64,000 nt of DNA from an uncultured Clostridia bacterium (GTDB lineage Bacteria; Bacillota; Clostridia; Christensenellales; Borkfalkiaceae): contig CANQXZ010000002.1 in NCBI GenBank assembly GCA_947627955.1, positions 1-64,000 on the forward strand, in the 5' to 3' direction. The notes below the pieces were generated by a model that was given only the letters and a program-made list of their open reading frames with translations, was not told the DNA's origin and searched no databases. The translations under genes were made by a program, and so were the position numbers. Positions 13,396 to 14,077 of the stretch are shown here, piece after piece (within the stretch, counting starts at the first letter, position 1; every line of letters begins with the position of its first letter).

Positions 13396-13458
13396 TACGG
13401 CGCGGCAATCATTACCACCTTTCTGCCGCATAGACGTGGTAAAACCTCGTCCACCAGC

Positions 13459-13519
13459 AAGCCCTACGGGCTTCGGTACGACGGGACGCAAAGCCCCAAT
13501 CGTAAATTCCCGTCCACCA
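13459..13519 (+). repeat. 61 bp direct repeat, copy 1
   Basis: Begins with the hairpin AAGCCCTACGGGCTT and ends with CCCGTCCACCA. It is identical to the copy at 13596-13656 except for one G/A difference. Confidence 0.9.
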
Positions 13520-13595
13520 CAGAGCCCAGACTGCAACGCAGTCTGGGGAACCTAATAAAGTATTGCGCCGCATATGCTGCAAATAGTGGACGAGT

Positions 13596-13656
13596 AAGCC
13601 CTACGGGCTTCGGTACGACGGGACACAAAGCCCCAATCGTAAATTCCCGTCCACCA
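13596..13656 (+). repeat. 61 bp direct repeat, copy 2
   Basis: Second copy, 137 bp downstream of the first. Confidence 0.9.
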
Positions 13657-13691
13657 GCAAGCCCCCGACCGCGATGCGGTCGGGGGCTTGC

Positions 13692-14077
13692 TGGTGGACG
13701 AGTCGGGACTTGCACCCGAGTCTTACGGAAATAAAAAGAGCTTTCTACATACTTATTCCGCCTTTATGCTTGACCCGCGCCTCCCGACGGACGGGGATAC
13801 GCGGGGGCATGCCCCGAAAAATTTCGCACGGGCGCCGCGTGGCAATACGGCGCATGCGCTATCCGTTTAAACGACGCCCGATCCCGCCAACGGAGAACGG
13901 ATACGGACGGACCGCTTTAAGTTAAGCGGCGCAGGCGGCAAGGCTGACCCTCGAAGGGAAAGCCACTACCTTTTCAGATTTTTTATCTGCGTTTGAATTT
14001 AAGTTACGTTTTAACGAAGCCGTACCTTCGGTATGCTTTTCTCTCTCTCACGCCGCAATCGAATCTGAAACTCGCCC
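13692..14077 (-). ncRNA. ssrA: tmRNA (10Sa RNA)
   Basis: 386 nt ribosome-rescue RNA, partner of SmpB (47,763). The 5' end GGGCGAG pairs with 3' CTCGTCC (one G-U), followed by encoded ACCA. The D-arm equivalent contains GATTCGA. The 3' part has the conserved AAGTATGTAGAAAG block and a TCGGG/CCCGA T-stem. The T-loop is TGCAAGT, with G where U55 is normally found. The reading frame closes with a stop in a hairpin CCGCTTAACTTAAAGCGG, the usual helix 5 arrangement. Unlike many Bacillota, it is not next to smpB. Confidence 0.95.
13922..13990 (-). other. Predicted tmRNA tag reading frame
   Basis: Taking GCA at 13990-13988 as resume codon gives 22 codons before TAA. The peptide begins ADKKSEKVVA, continues FPSR, and ends VSLAACAA. 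It is long, and its end is unusual next to the common -ALAA. The resume codon is placed by analogy with clostridial tags that begin Ala-Asp, so the N-terminal end is less certain than the frame and stop. Confidence 0.65.

Follow-up and report, generated by a model that had tools for sequence, protein, structure and literature searches.

A palindromic repeat array behind the tmRNA gene of a Clostridia bacterium and related structured repeats behind stable-RNA genes

The ssrA gene and the array behind it

The stretch of DNA analyzed here (the window) comprises 64,000 nucleotides from an uncultured Clostridia bacterium of the gut and carries an ssrA gene (encoding tmRNA), which ARAGORN missed. 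The next gene, a member of the LOG family, lies 354 bp behind it, and the intervening DNA contains an array of repeats (table 1) that, read in descending coordinates from the end of ssrA, consists of a perfect hairpin, a first unit, a spacer with a second hairpin, and a second unit. No integrase gene, by which an integrative island at a tmRNA gene would be recognized, is present between ssrA and the LOG gene, and an Rfam search of the array yielded, besides tmRNA, only hairpin matches at chance level.

Table 1. Features of ssrA and the array behind it (positions in the window)
Feature	Position	Strand	Basis or remark
ssrA (tmRNA gene)	13692-14077	-	Rfam RF00023, 130.6 bits
tmRNA 3' end, ..GTCCCGACTCGTCCACCA; template that the units copy	end of 13692-14077	-	sequence
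Perfect hairpin, GCAAGCCCCCGACCGC-ATC-reverse complement, directly behind CCA	13657-13691	-	25-bp perfect inverted repeat
Unit 1, made up of the inverted tmRNA end as left arm (TGGTGGACGGG), a T-arm-like hairpin, and a split tmRNA-end copy	13584-13656	-	
M1 (TCGTACCGAAGCCCGTAGGGCTT), hairpin micro-insertion of 23 nt placed at G^AC within the tmRNA-end copy	13596-13618	-	
Direct tmRNA-end copy ACTCGTCCACTA, 1 mismatch; right arm of unit 1	13584-13595	-	
Fragment of a dispersed MITE-like repeat (..GCATATGCGGCGCAATAC..)	13551-13583	-	also at ssrA of several congeners
Second hairpin, CCCAGACTGC-GTT-GCAGTCTGGG, preceding unit 2	13523-13549	-	
Unit 2: left arm and T-arm-like hairpin as in unit 1; ends within M2	13459-13519	-	
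M2, second 23-nt hairpin copy, letters identical to M1	13459-13481	-	
Inverted tmRNA-end copy plus first 8 nt of the hairpin	13446-13464	+	fused to M2 via shared AAGCCC

The sequence CGTCCACCA, which is inverted with respect to the tmRNA, occurs on the plus strand at 13448, 13511, and 13648, confirming the three inverted copies of the tmRNA end reported near ssrA in the first-pass annotation; that annotation saw inverted copies only and overlooked the direct copy that forms the right arm of unit 1. It had called the inverted orientation unusual for attachment-site remnants; the inverted copies are the left arms of palindromic units and not att remnants facing the wrong way. The near-perfect direct repeat that it gave as 61 bp is real and measures 67–75 bp (13453–13519 and 13590–13656 are 96% identical, and 75 nt match at 92%), and the array is bounded, as it had stated, by an exact 19-bp inverted repeat (13446–13464 and 13684–13702), which exists because the tmRNA end and the first 8 nt of the hairpin are present in inverted form at the outer end. 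Chance is a poor explanation of the pattern: the 17-mer has seven matches against 0.18 expected, and the folding of the stretch has a z score of −11.3, none of 200 shuffles being equally stable.

Units 1 and 2 are 92–96% identical, and both open with the tmRNA 3' end in inverted orientation. The copy of the tmRNA end in unit 1, GTCCCG/ACTCGTCCACTA, is interrupted by M1, and unit 2 is without a normal right arm. The hairpin directly behind CCA is extended by CGTCCACCA/TGGTGGACG to a 25-bp stem, forming a perfect hairpin at 13648–13700; it is probably the terminator-like first part of the unit and has no T run, and comparable perfect hairpins of different sequence occur in congeners. The first-pass annotation had proposed looking for the unit elsewhere in the same genome, and a search found it at ssrA as its sole site, on which ground a dispersed ssrA-specific hairpin was rejected.

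The site behind ssrA in related genomes

We compared the ssrA regions of 79 species of the window's genus, all represented by draft genomes (MAGs where named), in which many contigs end at the spot downstream of ssrA. The LOG family gene is the ancestral next gene; among these congeners its smallest distance from ssrA is 140 bp and its largest exceeds 3.6 kb, and the classes of array found there require at least 23 changes on the tree. Direct copies of each genome's own tmRNA 3' 12-mer number 18 within 1.5 kb behind ssrA versus none in the 71 kb beyond, and inverted copies number five just behind ssrA versus one further out. Several kinds of unit occur in tandem at congener ssrA loci, each starting exactly after CCACCA, and the close pair G097 and G099, whose tmRNAs are identical at 388 of 393 positions, differ by a 57-bp unit ending AAGTCCACCA. 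The first-pass annotation had suggested looking for islands at the ssrA of relatives, and large serine recombinases (with Resolvase, Recombinase, and zinc-ribbon domains) do abut the tmRNA gene at CCACCA in several of them. Because the gap varies, serine recombinases are found there, and the array classes change at least 23 times, the spot behind ssrA is an insertion hot spot in this genus. For the same reasons the site does not show the unchanged array, free of mobile elements across the clade, that the first-pass annotation had named as evidence against its own reading.

The serine recombinase elements were seen at L153:790-2442, L085, L092, L099, L102, L103, L118, L138, and L156, and their left end, ..GTATACGCACAC.., lies about 8 nt past the tmRNA CCA in many congeners. 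Gene-less units of 57–60 bp that carry the hairpin of these elements were seen in G021 and G097. The class-B (serine recombinase) elements that we checked have no distal 12-nt copy of the tmRNA end within the DNA examined; a distal att copy of such length is not expected of a serine recombinase. Four congeners (L113, L116, L135, and L133) have a tRNA-Ala(GGC) gene ending CTCCACCA at 6–40 bp past the tmRNA CCA, in the position that a unit of the array would take. A distinct array stands behind ssrA in G068 and G107 (L097 and L112), with units of about 60–75 bp that contain a GCACTCC..GGAGTGC hairpin and end in GCAGGTCCACCA, matching the variant of their own tmRNA.

The hairpin M and the structured element F

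Set against the tmRNA end, the window units read ..GTCCCG [TCGTACCGAAGCCCGnAGGGCTT] ACTCGTCCACCA, so that a 23-nt hairpin interrupts their copy of the tmRNA end at CCCG^ACTCG. This micro-insertion, which we call M, is a hairpin of 22–23 nt with a covarying stem that stands exactly at G^AC. Its outer stem pairs are formed in 153 of 155 cases across 31 distinct sequences, and the pattern has 117 matches, in 35 of 93 congeners, versus eight for a reversed control pattern. An empty counterpart was found for 25 of 72 contexts of M versus none of 71 control joins. The sequences that host it include MITE-like repeats, GTCATTCCGAG repeats, partial copies of tRNA-Ser, and partial copies of tRNA-Arg that are arrayed in tandem next to intact genes. 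M was found only in the window's genus, being absent from 336 other genomes of the order (0/336), and all named matches to the pattern are Clostridia MAG records. From these observations M would appear to insert as a micro-element resembling the CGTC-tagged REPs.

Some contexts of M deserve separate description. At L247 (G063:C357:2400-3300, positions 170–600) five tandem 84-bp partial copies of tRNA-Arg(CCG) immediately precede the intact tRNA gene, and the anticodon loop of every copy contains M or a close variant (CCG^ACG), the same theme on the 5' side of a gene. Among the contexts L178–L246 are dispersed MITE-like repeats made of chained small hairpins, with M always at one point and with stems that covary between copies (TTTAC/GTAAA, CGTAC/GTACG, and CTTAC/GTAAG). 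In the window's own genome, L170 (G000:C51, positions 1490–1700) has a copy of a tRNA-Pro 3' end with a diverged M (TCGTACCGAATGCGAAGCATT) beside a full copy of the structured element F.

F was found with a search seeded by the long structured core of another ssrA unit (G070, G082, G007, and G105), which gave matches in 50 of 93 congeners, most of them away from ssrA; the core is present at eight of the 79 ssrA loci. The element is about 145 nt long, within a unit of about 180 bp that includes a terminator-like hairpin, and 24 of its 34 consensus pairs show compensatory changes. Across 52 loci it lies behind a tRNA gene, typically by 52–65 bp and with at least 13 isoacceptors involved, or behind tmRNA. 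Its right arm is a copy of the last ~20 nt of the adjacent RNA (T-loop to CCA). For the arm counts, which were taken from F matches and thus describe copies of F rather than the share of tRNA genes without it, 29 of 39 right arms match the adjacent tRNA at 18 or more of 20 positions, versus 11 of 861 comparisons with other tRNA types, and the left arm is a perfect complement of the T-stem strand (9/9) in 23 of 39 copies against a background of 0.35%. Of 396 genomes of the order, the covariance model of F detects it in 23, and these belong without exception to one family, that of the window. Two full copies are present in the genome from which the window comes: the first follows tRNA-Leu(AAG), and the second is the one beside the M-bearing tRNA-Pro end.

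When each of 45 F cores is paired with its nearest relative among the cores, the two follow different RNAs in 29 cases and the same RNA in 16, the latter against a permutation mean of 4.4 and a maximum of 12. F cores are partly resident and partly switched; since a part of them keep to one RNA from species to species, some copies must be long established and not recent jumps. No transposase or integrase linked to F or M was found. Viral contigs contain neither the M nor the F pattern, and a phage origin was rejected for that reason; RAYT/IS200 mobilization of M in cis was likewise rejected, as a Y1 transposase was not found in the M-rich genomes, the set examined being G098, G013, G096, G089, G006, G016, and G000.

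Origin of the array and comparison with known systems

The window units share the place and the arms of F but not its core: the best score of the F model (R1) against the array is 4.8 bits, which is not a significant match. Because the core gives no match, descent of the units from F would have to rest on the arms, the place, and co-occurrence, the last of these seen in G091, where an F core and a window-type unit stand within one array. The window units are probably F-type scaffolds that have lost the core between the T-stem arms. At a probability of about 0.6, we read the array as a short palindromic repeat present in two decayed copies, of a type that follows genes for stable RNAs and whose own end duplicates the 3' end of the neighboring RNA.

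A different origin, in which each copy of the tmRNA end is the attR left when an island integrated at ssrA and was later lost, would fit the standing of tmRNA genes as the most enriched targets of genomic islands (PMC4383910), the serine recombinase elements sitting exactly at CCACCA in several congeners, and the occurrence of differing units in tandem at one boundary. It is nevertheless unlikely, because intact F is gene-less and has a conserved fold and target-complementary left arms, unlike an att scar, because at least 13 tRNAs are followed by units of this architecture, and because the class-B elements checked have no 12-nt copy of the tmRNA end in the DNA examined. What stands of the first-pass annotation's idea of an attachment-site scar is the insertion hot spot with its serine recombinases; the units themselves are not simple integrase scars, since the repeat type has its own conserved fold and the related F lies behind many tRNA genes. 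Its other suggestion, a mobile hairpin that borrowed the end of ssrA, is closer to the evidence. Alternatively, the units might be kept as transcribed RNAs or as terminator or 3'-processing structures. Strong covariation within F, the very stable hairpin behind the tmRNA gene, and a layout equal to that of RtT, described as an sRNA released during tRNA processing (PMC4986893), argue for such a function. Against it, conservation of the array classes is lacking, as window-type units, F, and the recombinase are all absent from ssrA in 38 of 72 congeners, and the core of F is missing from the window units; we consider it improbable that such a function explains the array. Hairpin-driven template switching and slippage at the tmRNA terminator, with no mobile element involved, would account for perfect palindromes whose sequence is unrelated from species to species, for the outer inverted end fused to M2 through AAGCCC, and for the tandem duplicates behind ssrA in G013, G064, and G023. 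Such errors cannot, however, yield one F core behind many different tRNAs or place M at the exact G^AC of unrelated repeats, so that as a full explanation they are very improbable and are disfavored for F and M, while the tandem and inverted arrangement may possibly be due to them.

If the array does consist of decayed palindromic repeats, its tandem copies would have arisen by unequal exchange between copies of the tmRNA end (slippage could suffice for the tandem copies alone), and its inverted outer end, whose junction with M2 suggests as much, by template switching through AAGCCC. For the spread of F we offer only a tentative and rather doubtful account, by which F would move as a folded single strand to a point behind an RNA gene, its placement would duplicate about 20 nt of the target, and the left arm would afterward be kept complementary via selection or hairpin correction. 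An integron-attC-like or a retro-type nature of F was also considered.

Among known systems, the islands at tmRNA and tRNA genes (Islander) resemble the array in having tandem copies of the target 3' end behind the gene, with serine recombinase elements at the same point, but the present units are 60–180 bp long and have palindromic arms and no integrase. M is, like the GTAG REPs and REPINs with RAYT, a tiny mobile-looking hairpin, but it has no GTAG foot and the M-rich genomes lack the Y1 transposase. It is closer to the CGTC-tagged REPs of Di Nocera et al. (PMC3733652), short palindromes with a CGTC or TGTC tag at one end for which a dedicated transposase is not known, in being a short hairpin with a CGTC or TGTC tag and no transposase of its own. 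Those REPs are defined by a CCA tail and a continuous stem of 8–9 bp whose first two positions are AT, and the text describing them names neither Firmicutes nor Clostridia (PMC3733652), whereas the stem of M is bulged and has 5–8 bp (5–6 bp plus GT/AC across the bulge), and M is an exact insertion at G^AC, with empty sites, in MITE-like repeats and in pseudo-tRNA and tmRNA ends. The exact empty and filled sites of this 22-bp insertion are evidence bearing on the movement of REP-like hairpins that have no known transposase.

The usual view of RtT repeats is that they are a small RNA of enterobacteria. The Escherichia coli K-12 units that we checked lie behind tyrV (three), tyrT, proK, and lysine/valine tRNA genes, thus at tRNAs Tyr, Pro-CGG, and Lys/Val; they are about 178 bp long, are in tandem at tyrT/V, and match the 3' end of the adjacent tRNA at 18–19 of 19 positions in their own terminal part, and the Tyr and Pro units start with the complement of the T-stem strand. 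Copies of tRNA ends are also present behind argQ and argZ. F shares both the location behind tRNA genes and the terminal copy of the neighboring tRNA's 3' end, and unit 1 of the window holds a tmRNA-end copy, but F differs from RtT (rttR, RF00391) in its core, in its host, which is a Clostridia family, and in occurring behind tmRNA as well. The RF00391 model has no match at E ≤ 1 in ten F loci, L090 and the window array give none even at E ≤ 10, and the covariance model of F does not detect E. coli RtT. F thus appears to work like RtT but, as neither model detects the other, is at most a candidate member of that family. There is a small chance that a single mobile kind of element, structured, without genes, and copying the 3' end of whichever tRNA or tmRNA it settles behind, is represented by F and RtT as two families that are either independent or very ancient. 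The copying might then proceed by a novel route, such as tRNA-primed reverse transcription with a template switch or a single-strand recombinase; if this two-family mobile reading is true, few bacterial insertion elements for which empty sites have been mapped would be as small as M. F raises the question of the route by which a gene-less repeat gains the 3' end of its neighbor, for which a genus of more than 90 species provides many natural replicates, and the layout of RtT, found in Clostridia behind many tRNAs and tmRNA in sequences unrelated to it by model, points to a recurring kind of sequence.
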